From Tetrapyrgos nigripes (taxonomy: Eukaryota > Basidiomycota > Agaricomycetes > Agaricales > Campanellaceae), in contig JAACJM010000319.1 of NCBI GenBank assembly GCA_013368315.1, positions 1-64,000 of the forward strand: a DNA stretch of 64,000 nucleotides, given 5' to 3'. The notes below the pieces were generated by a model. It saw nothing but the letters and a program-made list of their open reading frames with translations, was not told the origin of the DNA and made no database searches. The position numbers and the translations under genes are program-made. Numbering within the stretch: position 1 is the first letter of the stretch; the number at the start of each line of letters is the position of its first letter. Shown here piece by piece: positions 33,205 through 61,446 of the stretch.

Positions 33205-33777
33205 TTGAAACTAAACAAAGAAAACAAGAATGCAAGAAATAGTCTTGATGACTTTGAAGAGGTATTCACGTTGGGCAGGGTCCTTGATGTAGGTGTCGAT
33301 GAGGGAGTAAGTTTCGGAGTGGATGTTCTCCATCATGATCTGGAAACCGTAGAAGCAGCGAGCTTCAGCAGCTTGGACTTCGTTCGAGAAACGCTCAACG
33401 AGATTTTCGTTGACAATACCGTCAGAGGCGGCGAAAAAGGCGAGGACATGAGAGATGAAGTAGTGTTTGTTGTTGTTCATGTGGTTGTTCCAGTCGTGAA
33501 GGTCCTTGGAGAGATCCATCTCCTCAGCGGTCCAGAAAGAGGCCTCAGCTTTCTTGTACATCTGCCAGATCTTGGGGGTGATTAGAAATAACAACAAAGG
33601 TAGAGGTAGTCTTAGACACACACCTCAGGGTACTGAATAGGGAAGAGGACGAAGTGACGTTTGGTATCTTGAAGGAGAGGCTCCTTGTCTAAAACGACAT
33701 GTCAGAACAAGCAACGACGTGTAAAAAAAGGGAGACGCACTTTCGGGCAGATCAACTTCACCGACAAACTGGGACCT
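33205..33777 (-). pseudogene. Ribonucleotide reductase small subunit (R2), 3' part of split, truncated copy
   Basis: R2 carries the di-iron/tyrosyl radical cofactor that starts deoxyribonucleotide synthesis. Exons on the minus strand: 33741-33777, 33624-33688 and 33570 down to about 33211, with introns of 52-53 bp. The conserved run [20 protein letters not shown], then [39 protein letters not shown] and ENIHSETYS identifies it; the iron-ligand Glu and His residues in these blocks are present. Coding homology stops after EYLF plus about eight residues, so the last ~45 % of the protein is missing. It is the continuation of 41519-41777 on the other side of the Gypsy insertion. Confidence 0.85.
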
Positions 33778-34251
33778 TGTCATGAATCGCCTCCCGTCTC
33801 CTTCATTTTCTCTCTATTCTCCTTTACTATCTATTCACTTCTGTTCACCATTCTATCACCTCCCATAAACCCATAAATACTGATTACTTCTCATCATCGT
33901 CTCTTGGATCTATGACTCACTTCTCCGTTTCCTTTATCTCCATGGACATTCTCATGTACATATTTCTCTACTTGACCCACATTCTTATCTCCTCTGATTC
34001 CTAGGCTCCATGGACATTCTCACATATTCATTTCTTCTCTATATATATCGTAGATCTCGTAGCTAGTTCCTTAGTCTGTTCACTTCGTCTCCACTCCGCT
34101 CCTAGTACAGTGCAGTGTCGAGCATAGTCAGCTACTCGATCTCTTCTTGTCTCTATCATTCTTTCGCTATCTCATCTCATTGTAACTCGTCGAATCTATC
34201 TCGTTCATTGTGTGACTTGGGTGGTTTTGCTAAGTGACAACATTCTTGACA
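33778..34251 (+). repeat. 5' LTR of Gypsy copy 1
   Basis: 474 bp, TG...CA ends. TATA box TATATATA at 34040-34047. A likely transcription start lies about 30 bp further at AGTCTGTTCA (34073-34082), which also pairs with the primer-binding site. Identical to the 3' LTR except for one CpG-to-CpA change near its start. Confidence 0.95.
34040..34082 (+). promoter_or_regulatory. LTR core promoter: TATA box and predicted start site
   Basis: TATATATA (34040-34047) is followed 33 bp later by AGTCTGTTCA (34073-34082). In the LTR of Gypsy copy 2 the same pair is preserved. The start site is inferred from the spacing and from the complementarity to the primer-binding site; it was not measured. Confidence 0.6.
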
Positions 34252-36419
34252 CTTGAACAGACTCTCTTACACCCACCTCACAAACAGACCCTCGATAAAA
34301 ACACACTGGCTCTTAACTTCGAACCCCTTATTAACAATCTACGAACCCGACCTCCACCGTTCTATCCTTTCCCTATCGAAAAATCAAAGTACTTCGTAAA
34401 TTATCGAGAAGAACTCGAAACAACAGTACGCGAGCACGCTATCGCACTCGACGACTATTGGATCATACTCAACAAGAGATTGTGGATTCCAGGTGAAGTG
34501 ACTGTCTCCGAATACCTCCGAATAAAGATATCACCTGAAAACACCACTCCACGCTACGTTGCAATTGCAGATACGTGTTACCTCGTTCAACTAGGAGAAA
34601 CAAACCTCCCATATTGGTTCAGCCACGCCGACTACGAAGATAGCGACATCTTCGAGTTCAGCCAAGAGGAATACCATGAATATCTCCAAACCCGAGTCCC
34701 TAGAATAATCAACTACTATAGATCACTGGTCTCTTGGGAAGACGTCTCAGGAGAACAGTGGGATCTGTTATTTCCAGATTCTGAAACAAGTGAATGAGCG
34801 AAAGTGGAATTCCTAGAACCACTAGATCGTGTACAACCTCACAAAATCCTAGCCGTACTTCCTCCCCCCAGATCGTTTGTCTCAGACGACCTCACGCACA
34901 CGTTCCCCGAAACCAAAAAGATTGTTATTTCTCACACCGAAACCGGTGGGAGTTTTGTACAAACCATCCATGTCCCAACCGACTCTCCGTAAACAACCGA
35001 CCCCTTTCTATCGAAGAACAGGCAGTCGGTCTCGAACCAGTCTCACTCTTCGAATCACTCCCATCAGAACCAGCCGCAGAAAACCCAAATCCTGTCACAA
35101 CCCCGTCACCAACTCCTTCTCACGAACATTCCCCAGAACCCCATTCCCCTCACAACAGATCCCCGACGGACAGTACTCCTAGTGCGGCCCAAGAACCCAT
35201 CTCAATCAATCCCACACTTCCAATCGACTTCCACTCCATACACGCCGCTCTCAGAATGTCTGAAAACCCTGCCTCGGCCACCGCCGCTGCGGGAGGAACC
35301 CGAGACGCCGCACCACCTGATGACGAGGTTCAGGACGCTCAGTCCTCGGTCTTTCCTAACATGACTACCAAGGAATGAGGAGTGAAGCCAGAAAAGTTCA
35401 CAGGAGACCGAAACCAAACAAAGGATTGGATGGCCGAATTTAACAACTACCTCTGGCTCAACGATCAAGTCTATCCTACCGAAGACGAAAGGATATCATT
35501 CTTCCTCACGCTGTTCTCAGGAGATGAAGCGAAACGATGGGCGCGCAGTATGATGAAGAAGGTCTTTGAGGAAGAAGACAATTTCAGTGATAGTGATGAA
35601 GAATATACGAGCACCGACGAGGACTCCTCTGCTTTGAAACCAAAAACAAAAAAACTCTGGACTCTACACGAAGTAAAACGAGAGTTCCTGCGAGATTTCA
35701 AACCCGCAGCTCGGGAAACCCTGGTCCAAACCAAAATAGAGCACATCAAAATGGAAGGAGCCTTGGCGGATATAGATAAGTACAACTCCCAATTCAAACG
35801 ATACGCTGACGATACTGGCTATAACGATAAGGCGTTAATGAAATGGTATCGAAAAGGACTCCCCCGAGGATTGGTAGATCGAATCTCCTACCTACCCACT
35901 CAACCGAGAAATCTCGCGGCATTACAGAAGGCAGCGATAAAACAACACATGATTTGGTTAGAAAGGCAGGAGGAAAAAAACTCATGGAGTAAACCTCGAA
36001 GGGAGGAAGGACAGCTGGGAAGGGGGTCACAGAATATGAGAAGTAGTCGAACGAGAAGCATAGAAGTAAATGCCTTCCAAGACAACGTCCCAGGTGCATC
36101 TTCAATTACTAAATATCCACTGAAACTTACTCCCCAAGAAAGGGAAAAAATGAGGAGGGAAGGTCAATGCTTCAGGTGTCGAGGACTGGGACATATGGGT
36201 AACGACTGCCCTACATTCTCTAATACACCTCCGATCACTCCCAACAATACGACCTGGAGACCATCCATAAAGAAAACTGGAATCGCCACAGAAACCGCAG
36301 AGCCCGGGACCAACGCTACCACAGATAACATCTCAGAACTCACGACCAGAATCGGAGCATTATCAGGAGAAGAGAAGGAAGGACTACTGAAGAAGTTCGT
36401 AACGGAAGCGGATTTTTGA
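34252..36419 (+). pseudogene. gag: gag of Gypsy copy 1
   Basis: The upstream part (34234-34992) encodes a hydrophilic N-terminal region. It then changes frame near 34990, continues to a TGA at 35376-35378 where copy 2 has arginine, and resumes as the capsid-like segment (GVKPEKFTGDRNQ ... FFLTLFSGDEAKRW, 35379-36100) typical of Ty3/Gypsy gag. It ends with a CCHC zinc knuckle (CFRCRGLGHMGNDC, 36168-36210) and stops at 36417-36419. Gag would coat the RNA genome in the particle. The TGA, a stop at 34795-34797 and the frame change make this copy defective. An acidic stretch (FEEEDNFSDSDEEY) sits in the middle. Confidence 0.85.
34254..34263 (+). promoter_or_regulatory. Primer-binding site, self-priming type
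   Basis: TGAACAGACT begins two bases after the 5' LTR. Its reverse complement, AGTCTGTTCA, is the predicted first ten bases of the transcript. Known: Tf1 and sushi-type chromoviruses prime reverse transcription by folding the RNA 5' end back onto such a site, without a tRNA. I saw no tRNA-like TGG start here. Confidence 0.65.
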
Positions 36420-36421
36420 AT
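36405..36421 (+). promoter_or_regulatory. Predicted -1 gag-pol frameshift site
   Basis: The gag frame ends GAT TTT TGA (36411-36419). Slipping back one base on the T5 run reads TTT TTG AAT and enters the pol frame, which stays open upstream and downstream in copy 2. The same sequence is present in copy 2 (60178-60186, minus). A run of T before a stop is a plausible slip site; efficiency is unknown. Confidence 0.55.
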
Positions 36422-39400
36422 ACCTCCCCTGCTACGTCGTCAGGAGGAGGGACATGGACATACATACCAGTAAAACACAGGCAATACACGAGCCCTATAC
36501 CCCTTCATAAGCCATGATCCCTATCTGAATTAAGAATCACGGCAATCACTCGAAATCAACAGACCCCATCAATAGAGCTTAAAACCAAATTGATCGGGAA
36601 AATAACTGGACGAAAAATCGACGCAACCGCTCTACTAGACAGTGGAGCAGAAGGAATCATCATTAATGATACCTTCGCCCAAAAACATCATCTCAGTCGT
36701 ATTCCCCTAGAAAAACCATTTCCGGTTCGAAACGTCGACGGATCAGAAAACGTAATGGGATGGGTAAAACATTACACCGTTCAAAGACTACGGATTTACA
36801 CCCAAAACCACCAATCTCACCACGAGGAAACCGCCAAATTTTACATCACAGATATTGGAGATCACGATATCATTTTAGGTACCGATTGGTTACGACACCA
36901 CAATCCGGAGATCGACTGGACAACATCAGAAATCAACCTAACGTGATGTCCTAGCGCTTGTACGCAAAAAAGGACCCCGGTACAACCCAAAGCTAAGTCG
37001 AAAACCTCCCCTTCAAAAGTGAAGAAACCTGAAATAGTCGACCCCAGAACACATCACAAAGACTACCAAGTAACATTCAAAGATATCGTAGGCCCTCACA
37101 AAACAATGCCGCAACCCAAGATAGCGGGACAACGTCGAGCACAGCGATCTAGGAAGATCCGATTACAACGGATCGACTTAGGAGCAATGCTCACTTCAGA
37201 AGATACGACCGGACAATGGAATGTCCCGGGGCAATGGAGTGAACTCGTCATGGAATACCTAGACACCCCCACCGACCCTGATGAAGATCTATCAGATACC
37301 AAGCTGAGTATCCGAGCTGCCTTTACCAAAGCGTTACAAAACACTGAAAACAAATCCACGAACTCAGCAACCTCGTTGCAAGAACAAATACCAGAACAAT
37401 ACCATGAATACTTGTCGGTGTTCGACAAAAAGACTTCAGAACGCCTACCCCAACGAAGTAATTGGGATCACGCGATCGAACTACAAGACGGCTTCCAACC
37501 ACGCGCATGTAAAACATACCCTCTCTCTCCGAACGAACAATCCGAACTCGATTCCTTGCTGACCGAAAACCTCGAGAAAGGATACATTAAACCATCGAAG
37601 TCCCCAATGGCAAGTCCCTTCTTCTTTGTAAAGAAAAAGGACAGAAAGCTGTGCCCGGTGCAGGATTATAGAGCGCTCAACAAGGGTACTGTAAAGAACG
37701 CATACCCACTACCCCTCATCCCAGAACTAATTGATAAACTCAAAAACGCATATATATTCAGTAAAATCGACCTACGGTGGGGATACAATAACATCCGTAT
37801 CAAAGAAGGAGACGAATGGAAAGCCGCCTTCAAAACCAACCGAGGACTATTTGAGCCAACGGTCATGTTTTTTGGACTAATGAACTCACCGGCGACCTTT
37901 CAAGCAATGATGAACACTATCTTCAAGGACCTTATTGACCAAGGGAAGATCGTCGTCTATATGGATGATATTTTGATATTCACTCGTGACCTAGATGAAC
38001 ATCGGGAATTAGTCCAAACAGTCCTACGACGACTACGGGACAACAACCTATACGCCAAACCTGAAAAATGCATATTCGAAGCAGACAAAGTCGACTTTTT
38101 AGGACTGATTGTCTCTCACGACACCTTATCAATGGACCCAGTTAAGGTAGAAGGAGTACTCGAATGGCCAACTCCCAAAACAGTAAAGGAAGTTCAGGCT
38201 TTCCTGGGATTTGGAAACTTCTACAGACGTTTCATCAAGGACTTTTCAAAACTTGCACGCCCTCTCTTCGATCTGACAAGGAAGGACAACCACTGGAACT
38301 GGGGAACGGAGGCCGAAAAAGCATTCCAATCCCTCAAAACGGCCTTCACATCAAAACCCGTTCTACTGATGCCAGATCACACAAAACCATACCGAGTGGA
38401 AGTAGACGCATCAGACTACGCAACGGGGGGAATACTTATGCAAACCGGGGAAGACAATCGATGGCACCCAGTTGCCTACATCTCCAAATCCCTCTCAGAA
38501 ACCGAGCGAAACTATGACATCCACGACAAGGAACTATTGGCAATCATACGGGCATTGGAAGCATGGAGACACTATTTGGAAGGAGCCCCCCATTCTATCG
38601 AAATCTTCACCGACCACCGGAACTTGGAATATTTCCAGACCGCTCAAAAACTCAGTCGACGACAGGCATGATGGGCGTTATTCCTTACGCGATTTGAGTT
38701 CTCACTCCAACATAAACCTGGAAGTCTGAATGAAGCTGACCTGCTATCTAGACGACCAGACCATAAACTTGGGACCGAGAACGACAACACCAACAGAATC
38801 CTTCTCGACCCCAAATTCTTCCGAATCTGAGCAACTAGACAAGGAACAGTAACAGCCATAGGAGATGTAGAACTACGAAGGCGAATCAAGGAATGCCCCA
38901 AGAGGGACCTGGAAGTAGTGAGTGCCTTGGATGTCATCCTACGGAACGGACCACGTTCGCTGGTAAAAAACCTACAGGAATGGAATTACGAAGATGGAAT
39001 CATCTTATTCTGAGGAAAGATTTACGTACCAGCAGACAACGACCTCCGACGGGATATCGTAAAACTACATCATGACTCCCTGGCAACAGGACACCCCGGA
39101 CGATACAAAACTTACGAACTAGTCAGCAGGGAATTTTGGTGGCCTGGAATGTCAGTCTTCGTCAAGGACTACGTAACGGGCTGTGCCAAATGCCAGGTGA
39201 CGAAAACCAACAACCATCCCCCTCGGGTCCCCTTAATTCCTACCGAAATTCCAGAACGTCCGTTCGGGACTATTACCACTGACTTCATCACGGATCTCCC
39301 TGAATGCAAAGGGTTCAATGCAATTCACGTCACAGTTGACAAGTCAACAAAAACGGTCATCATATCGCTGTGCACAAAATCAATTGACAGTGACGGAACG

Positions 39401-40333
39401 GTGAATCTGCTACTTGACAACACCTGGCGGCGGTACGGGTTATGGGACAAGATGATATCTGACCGGGGGCCGCAGTTTGCTAGCAAGGTTATGGCCGCGA
39501 TCCATGAGAAGCTGGGCATAGCTTCAGCCCTCAGTACTGCTTACCACCCACAGACCGACGGGGAGTCGGAGCGATACAATCAGGAATTGGAACAGTTCCT
39601 ACGGATCTTCTGTAACTACCGACAAGAAGACTGGGTGGACTATCTACCCTACGCCGAATTCAGTCATAACACCAGAATCCACTCGGCAACAGGAAAATCC
39701 CCCTTCGAACTCCTACACGGATACCAACCACGTTTCTTTCCATCATTCAATCCAACCTCTAACCTACCGTCGATAGAGGAACGACTTGAAAACCTCAACC
39801 AACTCAGGGACGAGCTCAAAGCGAGTCTGACGTCAGCCGCCGAAACAATGAAAGCACAGCATGGTAATCATTCCATGTCTTGGACAGGATACAAGGTCGG
39901 GAACAAGGTGCTACTCGACAGAAAGAACCTGAAGACAACGAGACCCAAAGCTAAGTTGTCCGATCGTCGTCACGGTCCATTCGAGATCATCGAAGTAATC
40001 AGCCAGGTTAACTACAAATTGAAACTACCGACAACCTGGCGTATACACCCCATCTTCCACGTGTCCCTATTAACGCCGTACGTCGAAACGGACGCTCATG
40101 GACCAAACTACCCCGAACCTCCCGCGGAATTACTAGATGCAGACGAGGAATACGATGTCGAAATGATACTGGACTCCAAACCAACCAGAAATAGAAAAGG
40201 GACTCAATACCTCATCAAATGGTTGGACTACCCCGACTCGGAAAATACTTGGGTACCCACGTCAAACCTGACCAAGGTAAAGGACATGATCGAAGAATTC
40301 CACCAGAAACATCCCCGAGCTTACCGACATTAA
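36420..40333 (+). pseudogene. pol: pol of Gypsy copy 1 (PR-RT-RH-IN-chromodomain)
   Basis: Protease has LLDSGAEG (about 36628-36651). Reverse transcriptase spans about 37550-38120 with YMDD at 37958-37969. RNase H starts at VDASDYATGG (about 38400). Integrase has its HHCC zinc region (HHDSLATGHPG ... CAKCQ, about 39067-39195), then TTDFITDLPE, SDRGPQFAS and ESERYNQELEQF with the DDE residues. The C-terminal chromodomain reads YDVEMILDSK ... YLIKWLDYPDSENTWVP (about 40150-40270). In-frame TGA codons at 36944-36946, 38669-38671, 38828-38830 and 39011-39013 each replace an arginine codon (CGA or CGG) that copy 2 keeps. The region around 36480-36520 also carries a stop. Non-functional. Confidence 0.9.
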
Positions 40334-40489: not shown

Positions 40490-41032
40490 ATGTCTACACC
40501 CATTGCCATCACAGTCTCCACCACCAGGACGACAATCGACCCGTTAACGGACAACTCCGGACGCTGCAGATACGGTCAACGTTCAGGCCGGCGTTGCAGA
40601 TTGGATGAAGGACACACGGGGAGGCACAGCGGATGTAATCAGTGCATCTGGCCAGGGCAGGACTCGTCGAAACGATGTAGGATGGGAGAGGGACACCGGT
40701 CGAGATGCGCTACCTACCGGTCTAGCCTACGACCCAACGAACGAAACAACCTGGGATGGGGGGATGCAAGCGCGTGGGGAGGGGATATTCAGTTAAGCGA
40801 TGACGACAACAACGCTGGATGGGGCACAGCAGACGTCAACAACCATGATGGATGGGGCACATGGGAAGGGGGATGGGAAGGACGTGAGTCAGCCCTAACG
40901 GGATGGGGTAACTTCCCCCATGACTTACCAGAAACTTGGCCGACTATACGTGGCCTGGACAAGCAAATCAGGAGGCAGTGGACGGAGCAGTGGACCAGGT
41001 GGCTTCCGAGCTCCGGCGAAAGCTCGACCTAA
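40490..41032 (+). CDS. Third ORF of the Gypsy element: Cys/His modules plus GW/WG repeats
   Basis: 180 codons between pol and the polypurine tract; its TAA overlaps the start of that tract. The start is the ATG at 40490 because similarity to copy 2 begins there; an earlier in-frame ATG exists at 40391. Residues 26-73 hold two modules of the form C-x(9-10)-C-x5-H-x3-H/C (C26, C36, H42, H46; C52, C63, H69, C73), a likely zinc-binding pattern of no family I know. Residues 89-140 carry six tryptophans in GW/WG context (W90, 96, 111, 122, 129, 139) among acidic residues; the C-terminus is Trp/Arg-rich. Known: GW/WG motifs can bind Argonaute proteins. Inferred: an accessory factor, possibly against RNA silencing. 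Frame intact although gag/pol is dead. Confidence 0.8.
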   Translation: MSTPIAITVSTTRTTIDPLTDNSGRCRYGQRSGRRCRLDEGHTGRHSGCNQCIWPGQDSSKRCRMGEGHRSRCATYRSSLRPNERNNLGWGDASAWGGDIQLSDDDNNAGWGTADVNNHDGWGTWEGGWEGRESALTGWGNFPHDLPETWPTIRGLDKQIRRQWTEQWTRWLPSSGESST

Positions 41033-41044
41033 AAAGGGGGGTAG
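41033..41044 (+). promoter_or_regulatory. Polypurine tract
   Basis: AAAGGGGGGTAG lies immediately before the 3' LTR and is the usual plus-strand primer of LTR retroelements. The same tract is next to the 3' LTR of copy 2 (55847-55858, minus). Confidence 0.85.
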
Positions 41045-41518
41045 TGTCATGAATCGCCTCCCATCTCCTTCATTTTCTCTCTATTCTCCTTTACTATCTA
41101 TTCACTTCTGTTCACCATTCTATCACCTCCCATAAACCCATAAATACTGATTACTTCTCATCATCGTCTCTTGGATCTATGACTCACTTCTCCGTTTCCT
41201 TTATCTCCATGGACATTCTCATGTACATATTTCTCTACTTGACCCACATTCTTATCTCCTCTGATTCCTAGGCTCCATGGACATTCTCACATATTCATTT
41301 CTTCTCTATATATATCGTAGATCTCGTAGCTAGTTCCTTAGTCTGTTCACTTCGTCTCCACTCCGCTCCTAGTACAGTGCAGTGTCGAGCATAGTCAGCT
41401 ACTCGATCTCTTCTTGTCTCTATCATTCTTTCGCTATCTCATCTCATTGTAACTCGTCGAATCTATCTCGTTCATTGTGTGACTTGGGTGGTTTTGCTAA
41501 GTGACAACATTCTTGACA
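41045..41518 (+). repeat. 3' LTR of Gypsy copy 1
   Basis: 474 bp, one difference from the 5' LTR. Followed directly by the GACCT target duplication. Confidence 0.95.
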
Positions 41519-41777
41519 GACCTCAGCTGTTCAAAGTTGTCCTCCTCTTCGTGTACTTCTTCTTCATCGCCAAATGACGCCTGTCGTCAATGAGCTCGAG
41601 TTCGGCTGCAGTGACCTTGGACTTTTTGGTAGGCGACTCGATAGAGAAAGAGCCTATCCGAGATGCGAGCTAAAAGAAAAATGTCAGCCCGAGGTCATAA
41701 TGAAGAAGACGAGAAGAACCGACCTTCTTGCTGGGAGTGGGCTGAGGAGAGGGTACGCGAGTGGGAGTGGTGGCCAT
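41519..41777 (-). pseudogene. Ribonucleotide reductase small subunit, 5' part of the split copy
   Basis: Starts ATG at 41777. Exon 41724-41777 (MATTPTRVPSPQPTPSKK), an intron of 54 bp (41670-41723) and exon 41519-41669 (ASRIGSFSIESPTKKSKV and on). After SKVTAAELELIDD a one-base frameshift is needed to reach the acidic DEEEVHEEEDNFEQ stretch. Removing the Gypsy element with one GACCT copy joins this exon in frame to 33777 (reading on into VGEVDLPE), which proves that the two parts were one gene. The fragment is dead for three independent reasons: the frameshift, the insertion and the missing C-terminal half. Confidence 0.8.
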
Positions 41778-45520: not shown

Positions 45521-46177
45521 TTGCTGGAAAGGGCTGATGGCCGAATGGTGAAGGAGCGACTGGAATGTAGGAAGTGATGAAGAAGTGGTATCTGTGAAAG
45601 GAAAACAATGTTGAAAAGACAGTAGAAGACGATTCGACGGTCACTACTCACCAGATATCGTCATTGTCATCAATGACCGGCTAGCAGCTATGAACCACAG
45701 CGTCACCTTCAGGGCGGCGTAAGATGACTTCAACCGTCACTACTAGATATTTCCATTGTCATCAATGACCGGCTAGTAGCTGCGAAACATTGTGGTGTCA
45801 CCTTCAGCGATGCCGCATTATGCAAAACGAACTAACTTTAAAGATATTGTACATTCTTATTAGTTCTGTCTTGAGATTAGATTGAGAAAGGGACTTACAA
45901 TCTTTGAAGACCTCCTAACGACTGGAATAGGGCTTTGGGAGTGGCAAGTCTGGAGATAGAAGAGCTCAACATTGAACGTTGAAAGAGACCAGTCTGAAAA
46001 TTGACTAACCCCACATGAGCTTTGACATGTATGGCTTTGACATTACTGAGGACGGTCATGGTATCTGTTGGGACCAGACCATGCATTTGTCAGAGAGCCA
46101 ATTCGCATTACGACGCCAACTCACAACTGACGTAACCTGACAATTATGTTTTTGTCCGAAAACTGCTGTCATAATGG
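45521..46177. other. Upstream of the HECT-type gene; ~100-bp duplication
   Basis: Positions 45637-45705 and 45739-45810 are a diverged direct duplication, sharing ATTGTCATCAATGACCGGCT and the phrase GTCACCTTCAG. Otherwise nothing recognisable. Confidence 0.55.
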
Positions 46178-46340
46178 AATACCGAATTGAAGGAAGGGTG
46201 TACTGAATTGAAGGAAGGGTGTACTGAAGTGAAGGAAGGGTGTACCGAATTGAGACAAGGAGTACCAAATTGAGACAAGGAGTACCGAATTGAGACAAGG
46301 AGTACCGAATTGAAGGAAGGGTGTACCAAATCAAGAGTGC
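46178..46340 (+). repeat. Short 20-21-bp tandem repeat
   Basis: About seven to eight units alternate between GAATTGAAGGAAGGGTGTAC and GAATTGAGACAAGGAGTACC forms. Units of the two types occur in small homogeneous runs, as unequal exchange would produce. Confidence 0.85.
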
Positions 46341-48697
46341 TGAGTGCAGAACTGAACGGAGACAGTACAGGTTGACCGCTGGCAACACAAACTGGCATAT
46401 CGGAGTATCAGATTGCACTAAATATTTTTCCAAGATATGACTATTTGCTAAGTGCATTTCCCCCTCAAACAAATGTACAATTAATTTCCAAGCGAAAATA
46501 ATGCTTTATATGCTTTACATAAGTGTCCATACAACTACACCTACTTGCCTCAGGAGCGCGGGACATAGGTATCATGGGACATGGTAGCAAATGATAGGAG
46601 TTCTGGGCAAAACCAATTAAAATCTGCATTCTCCCAAAGAAAGAGGAACAACGCTCTCAAGTGCACGGAAATACATAATGTCTCGATTCATAATTATTTA
46701 ATCAGTTATTCCTGCTAACTACTTACAGGAGGCTTAGCAAAGCTTCAATGTCGGTCCAAATAATTCTAGTGAAATTCAATATAATCTGAGATGCTGATTT
46801 CGGTCCAACTTCTGCAAGTATTCGAAGTATTTGGGCTACTTGCAAGTGTTCGGACCATTCCCTGATCATTCGGCAAAAGCGTAAATCAGTGGTCGGGAGT
46901 CAATTCTCTTTATTCAGTACTCACTTCATAAATTCGGTCATTGTTCCTCTGAATTCAGCACTCGCCTTCAAGAGCTCGGATCTGAACTCTAGGAATTCAA
47001 TACTCGCCTTCTTGAATTCAGGATTTATATGTCAATTCAGGTGTCACATGTCACGCTTTTGCGTTCGGAAATGATGTTTTAGGTCGGAATAATACTTTCC
47101 ACGATAGCACAGCATATTTCATCAAACCTTTGCAGAAGTGACTGACACACCGGAAATACAAAAATATCTGCTCGACAGAAAGGCGTACAGAAACACACTT
47201 TTTTACAGATATATCTTATATCAGTATTAGTGATGTGATCTATCCGTTGAGCGGATATTTTTGTCTTTTCGGCATGTGACTCGAGTCTAGAAAATTTTCG
47301 TTTCTTCCCCACGCCCGCCAGCACAATATCACGTTCTTTCAGACCTCTCTTCCAACGCCATTCTTACTTATCCTACGCATGTCTAAATTACTTCAATGAC
47401 ATTTTGACACATATTCTGCCTAATTCTTAGATCTTGGACACCTCCAGCTACGTGAAGATCCATCTGTATGAACTTTCTCTCATCGTCGATGACGCGTTAA
47501 CGCGACAGTTGTCGGCCAAGCGCACTTTTTTCTGCTCTCTTTGCTCTACATTCACGCGAGGACGCAACTTCAAGACTTTATGCAGCGAAACCAACAGGGT
47601 TCAGAAGGTGGGAGATATAGGGTATTGGTCTTCGAGGTATGTATTGTCCCATGCTTCTCTTTATTCCAAGTCATGAAATGTCCTATCGCTTCGCTATTCG
47701 CTCCGCCTCAACGTCCTCAACATCCTCCCCAACCATGACAATCTATGTATTCAATTTCTTTTCTAATTCACACATCTCTCCTTCAACGTTATCCTCAAAC
47801 TCTACCTTCATCAAAGCTGAGCTAGATACTCGTTCAGTTCATGCCTCAAGTCTGGAATCTCGTTGTCAACGCATCAAGTCCCACAAAAGTAGCATTGACG
47901 TCAAGATAGTCTTTCGTGTGCGCAACGATGCTACTTGCGTATCTTGTGATTTTTCGCCTTTCTCTTCACTTGAAACTCTGATTCCTTGTGCTCCGTCGTG
48001 TGGGCTGCGTGATTCTTGCAGAGTGAGCAGTTGTTTAGGGATGTAGGATGGTATATATGCATTTCTTTCATGTTCTTAGCATCTATCCATCAGCACTTTA
48101 TTTTCAACTCTCCAATTTGCCTAACAAGCGAAATAGTTACGAGGCCCTCGTGGAAACTATATTTGCATCAAGCTTTGCGAAGTCGGCATGATTCGGCCTG
48201 GGCTATAAAAAGTTACATGTATACTCGGCATGCAGGCTTTGAGTCGCTCAATGACAACTTTCTCATTTCTCTACATTTTCAAGTTCCTTTTTCTGGCTCG
48301 TACACCATCCTTTGATCCTTTGTGTTACCGTGACACTGGTCCCTCCACAAACTATTACTAACTGTTACTTACTTACAAACTCAGCTTACCCCAAAGTCTA
48401 GTCAGTCTGAACTTGACTCCGACTCGGCAAATCCCAAATGCAAAAAAAAAAAAAAAAAACTTGATTGGTTGGTTTTTTTTGATCACGATTCAAATATTCA
48501 TGGCCTGTACCTGTTGCAACTTGCGCGTGCGACTTTTGCTTTAAGCTTTAAAAATTGCCAGTGGTCACGGCGACAGCATACTTTGACCGGACCTCGGTTT
48601 GGACTGGCTAGATCCTAGAAGGGACTACTCTGACCTTTTTCGCTAGGGTACTAGAGGATCTAGGCGGGAACACCAAGTACAGACCATGCACTAGTGT
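46341..48697. other. No recognisable gene; one dispersed repeat
   Basis: Several short frames have no family signature. A homopolymer tract occurs at 48441-48460. The copy of the dispersed repeat is at 47031-47118. Confidence 0.5.
47031..47118 (+). repeat. Dispersed repeat, copy 2
   Basis: Inverted partner of 27790-27882. It is preceded by a run with repeated GAATTC words (46950-47030) that partly recur at the other copy. Confidence 0.75.
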
Positions 48698-55319: not shown

Positions 55320-55846
55320 TGTCAAGAACGTTGTCACTTAGCAAAACCACCCAAGTCACACAGTGATCGAGATAGATTCAACGAGTTACAATGAGACGAG
55401 ATAGAGAGAAAGTGATGGGGAAGAGGAAAGATCGAGTAGCTGACTATGCTCGACACTGCACTGTACTAGGAGCGGAGTGGAGACGAAGTGAACAGACTAA
55501 GGAACCTAGCTACGAGATCTACGATATATATAGAAGAGAAGTGAATATGTGGGAATGTCCATGGAGATAAAGTAAACGGAGAAGTGAGTCATAGATTAAA
55601 GAGGAGTTTAGGAATCGGAGGAGATAAGAATGTGAGTCAGGTAAAGAAGTAAATATGTGGGAATGTCCATGGAGATAAAGTAAACGGAGAAGTGAGTCAT
55701 AGATTAAAGAGACGATGATGAGAAGTAATTAGTGTTTATGGGTTTATGGAAGGTGATAGAATGGTGAACAAAGGTGAATAGATAGTAGAAGGGAAAAAAG
55801 AGGGAAGTGAAGGGGGAAATGAAGGAGATGGAGGCGATTCATGACA
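55320..55846 (-). repeat. 3' LTR of Gypsy copy 2
   Basis: 527 bp, running from TGTCATGAATC at 55846 to TTGACA at 55320. It is longer than the LTRs of copy 1 because of an internal duplication (55551-55601 and 55650-55703, sharing the word GTGGGAATGTCCATGG). Confidence 0.9.
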
Positions 55847-55857
55847 CTACCCCCCTT

Positions 55858-56397
55858 TTAGGTCGAGCTTTCGCCGGAGCTCGGAAGCCAACTGGTCCAC
55901 TGCTTTGTCCACTGCTTCTTTATTTCTTTGTCTAAGCCACGTATAGTCGGCCAAGTCTCTGGTAAGTCGTGGGGAAAGTTACCCCATCCTGTTAAGGCCG
56001 ACTCGCGTCCTTCCCATCCTCCTACCCATGCGCCCCATCCATCGTGGTTGGTGACGTTTGCTGTGCCCCACCCAGCGTCGTCGTCGTTGTCTAACTCTAT
56101 GGTCCCCCCCCATGCGCTCGCATCCCCCCATCCTAGGTTGTTTCGTTCGTTGAGCCGCAGACTGGGTCGGTAGGTGATACATCTTGACCGGTGTCCCTCC
56201 CCCATCCGACACCGTTTTGTTGAGTCCTGTCCTGGCCAAATGCACTGGTTGCATCCGCTGTGTCTCCCTGCATGTCCTTCGTCCAACCTACAGCGCCGGC
56301 CTGAACGTTGGCCGTATCTGCAGCGTCCGGTGTTGTCCGTTAATGGGTCGATCGTTGTGGTGGTGGTTGAGACAGTGATAGTGATAGGGGTGGTCAT
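55858..56397 (-). CDS. Third ORF of Gypsy copy 2: Cys/His modules plus GW/WG repeats
   Basis: 179 codons, intact, starting MTTPITITVSTT. It has the same architecture as the ORF at 40490: all eight module Cys/His residues are kept, as are the six GW/WG tryptophans and the Trp-rich tail. Comparing the 50 codons from GRCRYG on, I count 17 synonymous codon changes and only two replacements (Thr/Ala and Ser/Thr), a pattern expected under selection on the protein. Neighbouring pol is broken in this copy (8-bp deletion near 59200, TAA at 58361-58363, loss of the chromodomain), yet this frame is not. Confidence 0.8.
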   Translation of the reverse strand: MTTPITITVSTTTTTIDPLTDNTGRCRYGQRSGRRCRLDEGHAGRHSGCNQCIWPGQDSTKRCRMGEGHRSRCITYRPSLRLNERNNLGWGDASAWGGTIELDNDDDAGWGTANVTNHDGWGAWVGGWEGRESALTGWGNFPHDLPETWPTIRGLDKEIKKQWTKQWTSWLPSSGESST

Positions 56398-56569
56398 GAT
56401 GGAATGTGATATGAGGACAAGGAGGTGTTTTTGGTAGGATATGGTTGAGTTCTGTTCTATCGTTTGGGTTCGATGTAGTTGGCTTTTAACGAGTTCGTAT
56501 CCGCAGCAGTGCGGGGCGGCCAAGTTCGTGATAGAATGTGACAGTAGATGCCGTTAGTGTCGGTAAGCT

Positions 56570-59500
56570 CGGGGATGTCGGTAATTTCAATTTGTAGTTA
56601 ACCTGGCTGATTACTTCAATGATCTCGAATGGACCATGACGACGATCGGACAACTTAGCTTTTGGTCTCGTTGTCTTCAGGTTTTTTCCATCGAGTAGCA
56701 CCCTATCTCCGATTTTGTACCCGGTCCAAGGAATGGAGTGGTTGCCATGTTGTGCTTTCATCGTTTCGGCGGCCGACGTCAAGCTTGCTTTGAGTTCGTC
56801 CCTGAGTTGGTTGAGGTTCTCGAGTCGTTCCTCTACTGTCGGTAGGTTAGAGGTTGGATTAAATGATGGGAAGAAGCATGGTTGGTATCCGTGTAAGAGT
56901 TCGAAGGGGGATTTTCCTGTTGCCGAATGTATTCTAGTGTTATGGCTGAATTCGGCGTATGGTAGATAGTCTACCCAATCTTCTTGTCGATAGTTGCAAA
57001 AGATCCGTAGGAACTGTTCCAACTCCTGATTGTATCGCTCAGATTCCCCGTCGGTCTGTGGATGATAAGCGGTACTAAGGGCCGAAGTGATCCCTAACTT
57101 CTCATGGACCGCGGCCATAACCTTGCTAGCGAACTGCGGACCCCGGTCTGATATCATCTTGTCCCATAACCCGTATCGTCGCCAAGTGTTGTCGAGTAGT
57201 AGATTCACCGTCCCGTCACTGTCAATTGTTTTCGTACACGGTGATATGATGACCGTCTTTGTTGACTTGTCAACTGTGACGTGGATTGCATTGAATCCCT
57301 TGCATTCGGGGAGATCCGTGATGAAGTCAGTGGTGATAGTTCCAAATGGACGCTCTGGGATCTCGGTGGGAATCAAGGGGATCCGGGTGGGATGGTTGTT
57401 GGTTTTCGTTGCTTGGCATTTGGCGCAGCCAGTTACGTAGTCCTTGACGAAGACTGACATTCCTGGCCACCAAAATTTCCTGCTGACTAGTTCGTAAGTT
57501 TTGTATCGTCCGGGGTGTCCCGTTGCCAGGGAGTCATGGTGTAGTTTTACGATGTCTCGTCGGAGGTCGTTGTCTGCTGGCACGTAAATCATTCCCCGGA
57601 ATAAGACGATCCCATCTTCGTAATTCCATTCCTGCAGGTTTTTTACCAGCGAACGTGGTCCGTTTCGTAGGATGACATCCAAGGCACTCACTACTTCTAG
57701 GTCCTTCTTGGGGCATTCCTTGATTCGCCTTCGTAGTTCTACATCTCCTATGGCTGTTACTGTTCCTTGTCTAGTTGCTCGGATCCGGAAGAATTTAGGA
57801 TCGAGAAGGATTCTGTTGGTGTTATCGTTCTCGGTCCCGAGTTTGTGGTCTGGTCGTCTAGATAACGGGTCAGCTTTATTCAGACTTCCGGGTTTATGTT
57901 GGAGGGAGAACTCAAATCGTGTTAGGAACAACGCCCATCGTGCCTGTCGTCGACTGAGTTTTTGGGCGGTCTGGAAATATTCCAAGTTCCGGTGGTCGGT
58001 GAAAATTTCGATAGAGTGGGGGGCTCCCTCCAAATAGTGCCTCCATGCTTCCAGTGCACATATGATTGCCAGTAGTTCCTTGTCGTGGATGTCGTAGTTT
58101 CGTTCGGTTTCTGAGAGGGATTTGGAGATGTAGGCGACTGGGTGCCATCGATTGTCTTCCCCGGTTTGCATAAGTATTCCCCCCGTTGCGTAGTCTGATG
58201 CGTCTACTTCCACTCGGTATGGTTTCGTGTAATCTGGCATCAGTAGAACGGGTTTCGATGTGAAGGCTGTTTTGAGGGATTGGAATGCTTTTTCGGTCTC
58301 TGTTCCCCAGTTCCAGTGGTTGTCCTTCCTTGTCAGGTCGAAGAGAGGACGGGCGATCTTTTAAAAGTCCTTGATGAAGCGTCTGTAGAAGTTTCCGAAT
58401 CCTAAGAACGCCTGAACTTCCTTTACTGTTTTTGGAGTTGGCCAGTTGAGTACTCCTTCCACCTTAACTGGGTCCATTGATAGAGTGTCGTGAGAGACAA
58501 TCAGTCCCAGAAAGTCGACTTTGTCTGCTTCGAACATGCATTTTTCAGGTTTGGCGTATAGGTCGTTGTCCCGTAGTCGTCGTAGGACTGTTCGGACTAG
58601 TTCTCGGTGTTCGTCTAGGTCACGAGTGAATATTAAAATATCATCCATATAGACAACGATCTTCCCTTGGTCAATGAGATCCTTGAAGATAGTGTTCATC
58701 ATCGCCTGGAAGGTCGCCGGTGAGTTCATTAATCCAAAAAACATGACTGTTGGTTCGAATAGTCCGCGGTTGGTTTTGAAGGCGGCTTTCCATTCGTCCC
58801 CTTCCTTGATACGGATATTGTTATACCCCCACCGTAGGTCGATTTTACTGAACACGTATGCGTTTTTGAGTTTATCGATCAATTCTGGGATGAGGGGTAA
58901 TGGATATGCGTTTTTCACGGTGCCCTTGTTGAGCGCTCTGTAATCCTGTACTGGGCGTAGTTTCCCATCCTTTTTCTTTACAAAGAAGAAGGGACTTGCC
59001 ATTGGTGATTTCAATGGTTTAATGTATCCTTTTTCGAGGTTCTCGGTCAAGAAGGAATCGAGTTCGGATTGTTCGTTTGGAGAGAGAGGGTACGTTTTAC
59101 ATGCGCGTGGTTGGAAGCCGTCTTGTAGTTCGATCGCGTGATCCCAATTGCTTCGTTGGGGCAGGCGTTCTGAAGTCTTTTTGTCAAACACTGATAAGTA
59201 TTCATGGGTATTTGTTCTTGCAACGAGGCTGCTGAGTTCGTGGATTTGTTTTCAGTGTTTTGTAGCGCTTTGGTAAAGGCAGCTCGGATACTTAGCTTGG
59301 TATCTGATAAGCCTTCATCAGGGTCGGTGGGGGTGTCTAGGTATTCCATGACGAGTTCACTCCATTGCCCTGGAACATTCCATTGTCTGGTCGTGTCTTC
59401 TGAGGAAAGCATTGCTCCTAAGTCGATCCGTTGTAATCGGATCTTCTTAGGTCGTTGTGATTGACGTTGTCCCGCTATCTTGGGTTGTGGCGTTGTTTTG

Positions 59501-60179
59501 TGGGGACCCACGATGTCTTTGAATAACACTTGGTAGTCTCGGTGGTATGTTCTAGGGTCGATTATTTCGGGTTTGTTCATTCTCGGAGGAGAGGTTTTGG
59601 ACTTAGCTTTGGTTTTTACTGGGGTTTTTTCCAGTGTACAAGCGCTGGGGCATCGCGTTAGGTTGATTTCCGATGTTGTCCAGTCAATCTCCGGGTTGTG
59701 GTGTCGTAACCAATCGGTACCCAGAATGATGTCACGATCTCCAATATCCGTGATGTAAAATTCGGCGGTTTCCTCGTGATAGGATTGGTGATCTGGGGTA
59801 TAGATCCGTAGTTTTTGGATGGTGTGATGTTTTACCCATCCCATTACGTTTTCGGATCCATCGACGTTTCGAACTGGAAATGGTTTTTCTAGGGGGATGC
59901 GACTGAGATGATGTTTTTGGGCGAAGGTGTTATTAATGATGATCCCTTCTGCTCCACTGTCTAGTAGAGCGATTGCATCGATTTTTCGTCCAGTTATTTT
60001 TCCAATCAATTCGGTTTTAAGCTCTATTGATGGGGTCTGTTGATTTCGAGTGATTGCCGTGATTCTTAATTCAGATAGGGATCGTGGCTTACGAAAGGGT
60101 ATAGGGCTCATGTATTGCCTGTGTTTTACTGGTATGTATGTCCATGTTCCTCCTCCTGACGACGTAGCAGGGGAGGTAT
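56570..60179 (-). pseudogene. pol: pol of Gypsy copy 2, chromodomain deleted
   Basis: Protease (LLDSGAEGIIIN) lies in the frame 59047-60432, RT in 58361-59191 (YMDD near 58650), RNase H and integrase in 56486-58240. Breaks: about 8 bp missing near 59200 shift the frame, and TAA at 58361-58363 replaces a serine codon. At the C-terminus, integrase runs to NYKLKLP and then jumps to the sequence following the chromodomain (junction about 56577-56582); roughly 280 bp including the whole chromodomain are gone, with the word ACA shared at the junction. A copy lacking the chromodomain would be expected to lose its chromatin targeting. Confidence 0.85.
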
Positions 60180-61446
60180 TCAAAAATCCGCTTCTGTTAC
60201 GAACTTCTTTAGTAGCCCTTCTTTTTCCTCTCCTGATAATGCTCCGATTCTGGCTGTGAGTTCCGAGATGTTGTCTGCGGTAGTGTTGGCCTTGGACTCC
60301 GAGGTCTCTGGGGTGACTGCGGTTTGCTTTATAGAGGGTCTCCAGGTCGTGTTGTTGGGAGTGATCTGAGGTGTAGAAGGGAACGTAGGACAATCGTTGC
60401 CCATATGGCCCAGCCCTCGACACCTGAAGCAACGTCCTTCCTTTCTCATCTTTTCTCTTTCTTGGGGAGTCAGTTTCGGTGGGTATTTAGTAATTGAAGA
60501 TGCACCTGGGACGTTGTCTTGGAGGGCATTTACTTCTATGCTTCTCGTTCGACCACTTCTTGTACTCTGTGACCCCTTTCCTGGCTGTCCTTCCTCCCTT
60601 CGAGGTTTACTCCATGAGTTTTTCTCTTCCTGCCTTTCTAACCAAATCATGTGTTGTTTTACCGCTGCTTTCTGTAATGCCGCGAGATTTCTGGGTTGAG
60701 TGGGTAGGTAGGAAATTCGATCTACCAATCCTCGGGGGAGTCCTTTTCGATACCATTTCATTAACGCCTTATCGTTATAGCCAGTATCGTCAGCGTATCG
60801 TTTGAATTGGGAGTTGTACTTATCTATGTCAGCCAGAGCTCCTTCCATCCTGATGTGTTCTATCTTGGTTTGGGCCTGGGTTTCCCGAGCTGAGGGTTTG
60901 AAATCCCGCAGGAATTCTCGCTTTACTTCGTATAGAGTCCAAAGCTTCTTCTTCGTTTCTGGTTTCGAAGCGGGGGAGTCCTCGTCGGTACTCATATATT
61001 CCTCGTCACTATCACTAAAGTCGTCTTCTTCTTCAAAGACCTTCTTCATCATACTGCGCGCCCATCGTTTCGCTTCATCTCCTGAGAACAGCGTGAGGAA
61101 GAACGATATTTTTTCGTCTTCGGTAGGGTAGACTTGATCGTTGAGCTGGAGGTAGTTGTTAAATTCGGCCATCCAATCTTTTGTTTGGTTCCGGTCTCCT
61201 GTGAACTTTTCTGGCTTTACTCCACGTTCCTTGGTAGTTGTATTAGGAAAGACCGAGGACTGAGCGTCCTGAGCTTCGTCGTCGGGTGGTGCGGTGTCTT
61301 GAGGGGCTCGAGTTCCTCCCGCAGCAGCGGTGGCCGAGTCAGGGTTTTCAGACATTCTGAGAGCGGCGTGAATAGAGTGGAAATCGATTGGGAGTGTGGG
61401 GTTGATTGAGATGGGTTCCTGGACTGCACTAGGAGTGCTGTCCGTC
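60180..61446 (-). pseudogene. gag: gag of Gypsy copy 2, N-terminally truncated
   Basis: Frame open from 61562 to 60180. The part from about 61446 to 60180 matches gag of copy 1, with arginine (CGT) where copy 1 has the TGA at 35376, the capsid-like segment and the CCHC knuckle (CFRCRGLGHMGNDC). The first ~39 codons of the open frame come from unrelated flanking DNA, so the true N-terminal region is lost. It ends at the same T5 slip site as copy 1. Confidence 0.85.

Follow-up and report, generated by a model that had tools for sequence, protein, structure and literature searches.

ORF3, a frame of 180 aa between pol and the polypurine tract, is almost certainly a true accessory gene. It belongs to a chromodomain-bearing Ty3/Gypsy lineage in the genome of Tetrapyrgos nigripes, and that the encoded protein is under selection is equally firm. 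Selection on the protein is recognized from dN/dS of 0.16 in clade A and 0.21 in clade B, compared with 1.4–1.7 in shifted frames. The window, i.e., the whole stretch of 64,000 nt that was analysed, carries two copies of the element. Additional ORFs in fungal chromoviruses are already known; an ORF3 of the present type, with GW/WG motifs or Cys/His modules, was not found described for any chromovirus in the open-access literature searched. The first-pass annotation had stated that chromoviruses normally encode only gag and pol. This is right for most full-length fungal elements of that survey, with one or two ORFs, and too strict for the rest, as extra ORFs are already drawn in some full-length fungal chromoviruses (PMC2864245, 2010). 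Those are fungal chromodomain Gypsy elements with an additional ORF in some, like the element of ORF3; section 5 of that paper gives no sequence, per-element position, or function of the extra ORF, which may or may not correspond to ORF3. Two ORFs are described as usual in PMC3248453 as well.

Structure of the element and its insertion site

The features of the two copies in the window, with coordinates and strand, are the following:

33773..33777, no strand: target site duplication GACCT, left; matches 41519–41523 exactly, and an element-free locus exists on L079
33778..34251, +: 5' LTR, 474 bp, TG...CA; 1/474 positions unlike the 3' LTR
34306..34797, +: ORF0, no Met codon, before gag; CTG at 34306 in acaCTGG, TGA stop overlaps the gag ATG
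34794..36419, +: gag with CCHC zinc knuckle (Pfam Retrotrans_gag, zf-CCHC); in-frame TGA in copy 1
36329..40333, +: pol in the −1 frame of gag, with protease, RT, RNase H, integrase, and chromodomain (frames, Pfam)
40490..41032, +: ORF3, 180 aa (translation, own-genome searches, alignment, dN/dS)
40565..40708, +: Cys/His modules of ORF3, CX9CX5HX3H and CX10CX5HX3C (residue invariance; dN/dS 0.093)
40748..40939, +: tryptophan-rich acidic segment of ORF3 with GW/WG (W invariance; dN/dS 0.167 and 0.201 in two parts)
41007..41026, +: 20-nt inverted-repeat core CGAGCTCCGGCGAAAGCTCG inside the ORF3 3' end (copy comparison)
41033..41041, +: polypurine tract AAAGGGGGG, directly 3' of the ORF3 stop codon (position before LTR)
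41045..41518, +: 3' LTR, 474 bp (LTR comparison)
41519..41523, no strand: target site duplication GACCT, right; same 5 nt as on the left side
55320..55846, −: 3' LTR of copy 2 (blastn with LTR)
55858..56397, −: ORF3 of copy 2, 179 aa (translation, own-genome searches)
56486..61446, −: gag-pol remains of copy 2 (inverted repeats I1–I3 and I10)

Copy 1 has the arrangement of a Ty3/Gypsy chromovirus, with TG...CA LTRs flanked by a 5-bp target duplication and with gag followed by PR-RT-RH-IN, where a chromodomain recognized in Pfam ends the integrase. The Pfam families found on copy 1 are Retrotrans_gag, zf-CCHC, gag-asp_proteas, RVT_1, RT_RNaseH, rve, and Chromo. An element-free version is present on locus L079 (contig C223), where both flanks abut with a 5-nt overlap and are 96.6% and 97.9% identical, respectively; the insertion of copy 1 is therefore young and occurs on only one of the two forms of this locus, which suggests that both haplotypes are represented in the assembly here. 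Copy 1 adjoins a match to the ribonucleotide reductase small subunit (PF00268, 33229–33576) and probably lies inside that locus. For copy 2, no 5' LTR was matched within the window by blastn with the LTR.

Several in-frame stop codons interrupt pol of copy 1, and its ORF3 is open. Gag and pol together carry several in-frame stops (35376–39013) despite LTRs that differ at 1/474 positions. Across the coding pieces of clade A, TGA accounts for 32 of the 36 in-frame stops, which fits CpG decay, and copy 1 was possibly mobilised in trans when already broken.

The extra ORF of 179–180 codons between pol and the polypurine tract is open in both copies and translates as first described. It starts at its own ATG in a good context, position −3 being a purine in 27/28 open copies. 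Read-through or frameshift from pol was rejected, as ORF3 is in the frame of pol in L029 and L030 and in another frame in L032 and L033. No conserved splice acceptor was recognized ahead of the ORF3 ATG: among 17 clade A spacers, no AG reaches 90% conservation.

The ORF3 protein, its copies, and selection

Both predicted Cys/His modules were recovered in translation as C26-x9-C36-x5-H42-x3-H46 and C52-x10-C63-x5-H69-x3-C73, and the six GW/WG tryptophans announced for the protein are present, with six W having a Gly neighbour in the first copy. All nine Cys/His of residues 20–75 are invariant in 26 aligned copies of clades A and B. In two aligned copies of clade C1, C49 is changed to Val, which leaves two four-ligand sets. 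The two sets resemble each other and, judged by eye, look like a tandem duplication. The eight Cys/His ligands together with the tryptophans are the best-kept residues of ORF3 in A, B, and C1, and the modules are rich in Arg (RCRYGQRSGRRCR). The spacing of ORF3 is not that of a CCHC knuckle (CX2CX4HX4C), and none of the Pfam matches obtained with 26 members is zf-CCHC. The pattern of the C2H2 zinc finger is CX2–4CX12HX3–5H; the ORF3 spacing differs from it, and no zinc-finger family was matched in Pfam (26 members, E ≤ 1).

In residues 76–150, invariance was found for 5/8 W, 3/13 G, and 4/54 other residues (W versus other, Fisher p 0.0009), and in an alignment of 12 sequences from A, B, and C1, no change is seen at W90, W96, W122, W139, W150, and W164. 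The neighbours of W were compared with shuffles in 24 rows, four C2 rows (L058, L061, L072, and L076) being excluded for wrong segment boundaries, as were three C2 rows in the comparison of residue conservation and GW. W with a Gly neighbour is above the shuffle mean in 20/20 evaluable rows, with single p values of 0.002–0.32 and with rows that are kin and not independent. The GW excess over composition is consistent across rows and weak or marginal in any one protein. No excess over shuffles was found for W with an Asp/Glu neighbour (lowest p 0.28). The number of W with a Gly neighbour is 4–7 in 12 Cys/His-type rows and 3–5 in 8 evaluable C2-type rows. As in hook proteins, several GW/WG lie in one polar segment, and W is conserved across relatives.

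No Pfam family was found for the two ORF3 proteins of the window, and a Pfam search with 26 ORF3 members gave four weak, unrelated families in few members (E ≤ 1), none of them a zinc finger. Matches in PDB were obtained at E 1.8 and 2.2 only. A search of 5.8 billion proteins returned P0003 alone, a T. nigripes gene model; as more than 100 scored ORF3 matches of the genome are represented by one annotated protein, this absence says little on other fungi. A scan of IMG/VR with the ORF3 alignment gave 25 pattern matches, of which none was confirmed. The mean pLDDT in AlphaFold2 was 30.4 for whole ORF3 (26 sequences) and 42.5 for the Cys/His region (23 sequences); it is below 50 nearly everywhere, in the Cys/His part as well as in the W-rich segment, and such values say nothing on disorder. 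Residues 153–171, with conserved Q163, W164, and W168, were modelled as a low-confidence helix. A fold search from these models was left aside, since a low-confidence model gives meaningless matches.

The search of the own genome with ORF3 DNA gave 80 candidates, 40 of which were scored (40/40 matches), and the protein search gave 531 loose first-look candidates, 150 of which were scored and listed. Among the 150 scored rows, clade A is 72–100% and clade B 45–53% identical to the window copy; in-frame stops are present in 33/150 rows when counted by hand, and some rows are fragments. The loci read were 20 further A, 13 B and one A relative, and seven others. In an integrase search of the genome (1,603 candidates), the 105 scored matches revealed a third group at 81–86%. 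On 26 loci of this group that were read, a Cys/His-type ORF3 was recognised in 12 (C1) and a different type of ORF in 14 (C2). The chromodomain tree was computed with 36 rows from clades of the own genome (5/41 dropped as too short) and midpoint root. In this tree, B is split from A+C at 100/100, C1 and C2 are joined at 97/93, and A is supported at 94/92. According to the tree, the Cys/His-type ORF3 is most simply ancestral, and the C2 type is a later remodelling or replacement.

The dN/dS ratios were computed by the Nei-Gojobori method as the ratio of means over all pairs. In clade A (18/22 copies, at least 90% covered in one frame), dN/dS of ORF3 is 0.159, compared with 1.43 and 1.74 for the same DNA in the two shifted frames. 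Other parts of clade A elements have values of 0.114 (gag, 18 copies), 0.114 (RT, 15 copies), and 0.073 (integrase-chromodomain, 19 copies). Along clade A ORF3, dN/dS is 0.079 at the N-terminus (residues 2–24), 0.093 in the Cys/His modules, 0.167 in LGWGDxSxWG, 0.201 in the GW segment, and 0.280 at the C-terminus. The ratio is 0.212 in clade B (11/13 loci, without one with a stop and one identical duplicate), 0.348 in C1 (8/12 loci, several with stops), and 0.229 for the C2 ORF (14/14 loci), and the shifted frames of B, C1, and C2 give 0.82–1.43. The earlier count for the two window copies in codons 24–73, 17 silent and 2 replaced codons, is exact, and across the entire ORF3 there are 49 silent and 23 replaced codons. 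The view that the protein was under selection is upheld in all four clades by the low ratio in the true frame versus 0.82–1.74 in shifted frames. Both a dN/dS near 1 and an absence from family members were looked for within this genome, and neither was found. The nt identity is 0.87 in ORF3 and 0.82 in the neighbouring spacer.

The C2 ORF starts with an S/T-rich stretch and FSFxPETSLxFSxTKxPYxP and is without Cys/His modules. A W-rich acidic segment follows, in L059 DDGWGNPDNDKGWDSDGWGSWGHHT, and this part has the lowest dN/dS of the ORF, 0.160 (75/91 pairs usable), compared with 0.333 in the N part. Alignment of C2 with the Cys/His type in hhalign gave a 19-column W-rich match with probability 37, which is too low to show common descent. 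In copies L053, L055, and L070 the frame continues into the LTR and has a predicted hydrophobic end, LFISYLHGLLF...; the remaining C2 copies stop before this stretch. A database search with C2 returned P0004, a T. nigripes gene model, and P0005, a C2-type sequence of 144 aa that is coded on a 1,172-bp contig in another record and is 36% identical. P0005 keeps the GW core DGWGNLHNNDGWDSDGWGLWGHH and the same reading of the nucleotides before the polypurine tract as C2 and is the sole sign in this analysis of the ORF beyond this assembly.

Possible functions of ORF3

The best-fitting reading of the ORF3 tail is that of an Argonaute hook, with a probability of roughly one in three, and the Argonaute part of the earlier interpretation, an RNA-silencing antagonist or recruiter, is compatible with the data. 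ORF3 would then be a two-part adaptor, in which the basic Cys/His-rich N-terminal half may hold a nucleic acid or a host partner, and W in small-residue surroundings of G/N/S/D may be short linear motifs for a host protein with tryptophan pockets. The host partner of the tail would most likely be Argonaute, and the element RNA would thereby escape silencing or use Argonaute. In clade C2, the adaptor would combine a similar tail with another front half. A similar W-rich segment in two otherwise different ORF3 types speaks for the Argonaute reading, as do the conservation of W above other residues of the acidic segment, the Gly neighbours of W, and the PIWI-family matches of the host.

The host genome has 21 matches to the PIWI family (35 candidates scored) in 10 contigs, some of them with stops. 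The best matches of an exon on contig C112 are N. crassa QDE-2 and human AGO2; for the exon before it, Piwi proteins are the best (E 0.0005), with human AGO2 at E 0.98 only. In the alignment of the C112 exon, Arg is kept at human AGO2 position 688, and Phe replaces Leu 694, both of which are presumably tryptophan-pocket residues. The Phe for Leu 694, the Piwi-like neighbour exon, the weak GW excess per protein, the variable pockets of fungal Argonautes, the low hhalign probability between the two W-rich segments, and the C2 rows that fit an activation-domain composition were counted against the Argonaute reading.

According to a 2025 analysis, the tryptophan pockets vary among fungal Argonautes, and of the three pockets one is better preserved in fungi (PMC12477606). 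RNAi silences transposons in some fungi, e.g., Cryptococcus, where Gwo1 is found with Ago1 in P-bodies and the pathway restrains transposons (PMC6643885). The likeness to Gwo1 of Cryptococcus neoformans lies in the basidiomycete host and the Argonaute pathway restraining transposons, but Gwo1 is a host silencing factor (PMC6643885), and ORF3 comes from an element that would itself be a target of silencing. For P1 of sweet potato mild mottle virus (SPMMV), mutagenesis together with AGO1 binding established three WG/GW motifs (PMC2904775). ORF3 is similar as an element-encoded protein with several W beside G, but unlike P1 it is known from sequence alone, and no sequence kinship is claimed.

ORF3 could also be an RNA-binding, nucleocapsid-like protein, which is possible but somewhat unlikely. 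Its modules would bind the element RNA or cDNA, and the W tail with the C-terminal helix would assemble with Gag or itself. The modules are Arg-rich and among the most constrained parts (dN/dS 0.093, with 0.079 for residues 2–24), and the low-confidence helix 153–171 holds conserved Q163, W164, and W168, but gag already has a CCHC knuckle, the ORF3 spacing is unlike such knuckles, and clade C2, without modules, indicates that these are not essential for keeping an ORF at this place. An unlikely role is that of a transcriptional activator of the LTR, with modules binding DNA and the acidic tryptophan segment as activation domain. By a composition rule, an activation domain has a net charge of −9 or lower and at least seven W/F/Y/L in a 39-aa window; 6/12 C2-type rows pass this rule, but 0/12 Cys/His-type sequences do, and 0/6 did in a separate run. 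The segment is acidic and aromatic, but W is beside Gly more often than expected and beside Asp/Glu not, which is unlike the acidic-aromatic pattern usual in such domains, and C2 is without a recognisable DNA-binding part.

It is very improbable that ORF3 is a functionless frame, captured or left over, whose conservation reflects young copies or a constraint on DNA. The last ~20 nt before the stop are constrained whatever the frame, and stops are present in 33/150 rows, but the true-frame dN/dS of 0.08–0.35 versus 0.82–1.74 in other frames largely refutes it, the 3' tail excepted; conservation between clades A and B at 45–53% identity and the less conserved neighbouring spacer (0.82 versus 0.87 nt identity) also speak against it. 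An envelope-like or membrane protein for cell-to-cell spread, as in errantiviruses, would suit the position after pol and the hydrophobic end in the LTR of C2 copies L053, L055, and L070. This role is likewise highly improbable, as no hydrophobic or signal-like stretch was seen by eye in the A, B, and C1 translations, the other C2 copies stop earlier, and there is no Pfam match.

Tentatively, and at well below even odds, the Argonaute reading may be extended to the lineage, which would have a hook of its own with a GW/WG tail and would blunt or redirect RNA silencing; the front half of the hook would be exchangeable, with Cys/His modules in three clades and an unrelated domain in the fourth. 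If true, basidiomycetes would have an RNAi suppressor encoded by a retrotransposon, next to a second accessory protein translated from a CUG ahead of gag; in the open-access literature searched, no RNAi antagonist encoded by a fungal retrotransposon was found. With its numerous copies, its evident selection, and variants that naturally have or lack the modules, the lineage makes the question of the GW hook directly testable. VANC of Arabidopsis VANDAL elements is a transposon-encoded anti-silencing protein; it differs from ORF3 as an unrelated protein of a DNA transposon in the DNA-methylation pathway, and for ORF3 an anti-silencing role is only proposed. TET/JBP dioxygenases of fungal DNA transposons are similar as accessory proteins possibly acting on host silencing but differ in belonging to DNA transposons and in being unrelated DNA-methylation enzymes (PMC12730594). 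Orchid Ty3/Gypsy elements with an m6A demethylase domain are also Gypsy elements that fixed an additional conserved domain, but they have plant hosts and a recognisable enzyme domain (PMC9289625).

The 3' end of ORF3, the frame before gag, and minor observations

A 20-nt core, CGAGCTCCGGYGNAAGCTCG, was identified in 54/59 copies of clades A, B, C1, and C2 as the best 20-mer with at least 14 matches. In 51/54 copies, 8 or 9 nt separate it from the polypurine G-run that follows. In A, B, and C1 it is read as PSSGESS or near it, and in C2 in another frame. Conservation of the SSGESS tail as protein was ruled out, since C2 reads the same nucleotides in a different frame; the tail of ORF3 is probably conserved for DNA or RNA, as a cis-acting signal, rather than for protein. 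The core can form a 6-bp stem, with all six pairs in 46/54 copies. The inner four pairs never vary, and pairing of the stem is therefore not proven.

ORF0 is an open frame in 34234–34797 of the window, with about 163–187 codons between the 5' LTR and gag. Its dN/dS is 0.276 in 19 clade A copies (2/21 matches dropped as partial), with 0.94 and 1.15 in the shifted frames. All 19 listed clade A copies have the CTG, flanked as acaCTGG or, in one copy, with acg in place of aca. Over 20 copies, the ATG count in the 490 nt upstream of gag averages 0.9 versus 6.5 in shuffles, with none in 10/20 copies and at most five, and in L078, the single clade B locus read, there is no ATG in 420 nt before gag. 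These patterns suggest that ORF0 is a CUG-started protein and that AUGs before gag are selected against. No Pfam match was found for ORF0. Glyco-Gag of murine leukaemia virus is a CUG-started accessory frame upstream of gag, and ORF0 resembles it as an accessory frame before gag with a putative CUG start; glyco-Gag is in frame with Gag, whereas the stop of ORF0 overlaps the gag ATG in another frame. This chromovirus has extra ORFs under selection at either end, one of which overlaps a likely cis signal.

The start of gag (34794–35030) has a Cys/His stretch of its own, CLRRPHAHVPRNQKDCYFSHRNRWEFC in clade A, apart from the CCHC knuckle, and a related stretch is present at the gag start of clade B L078 (tblastn E 1.75e-06). 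A cut-short ORF3 with equal scores was found on contigs C3, C22, C58, C168, and C172; the three that were read share one broken translation, and on four of the five contigs a partial ORF0 likewise gives equal rows. The group first looked like a recent amplification of a defective variant. The truncated copies on C3 and C168 start equally far from the contig end, and that on C22 does not; duplicated chromosome ends are a possible origin of the group. A tandem array with 21-bp spacing and units like GGTGTACTGAATTGAAGGAAG is located at 46155–46368 of the window.
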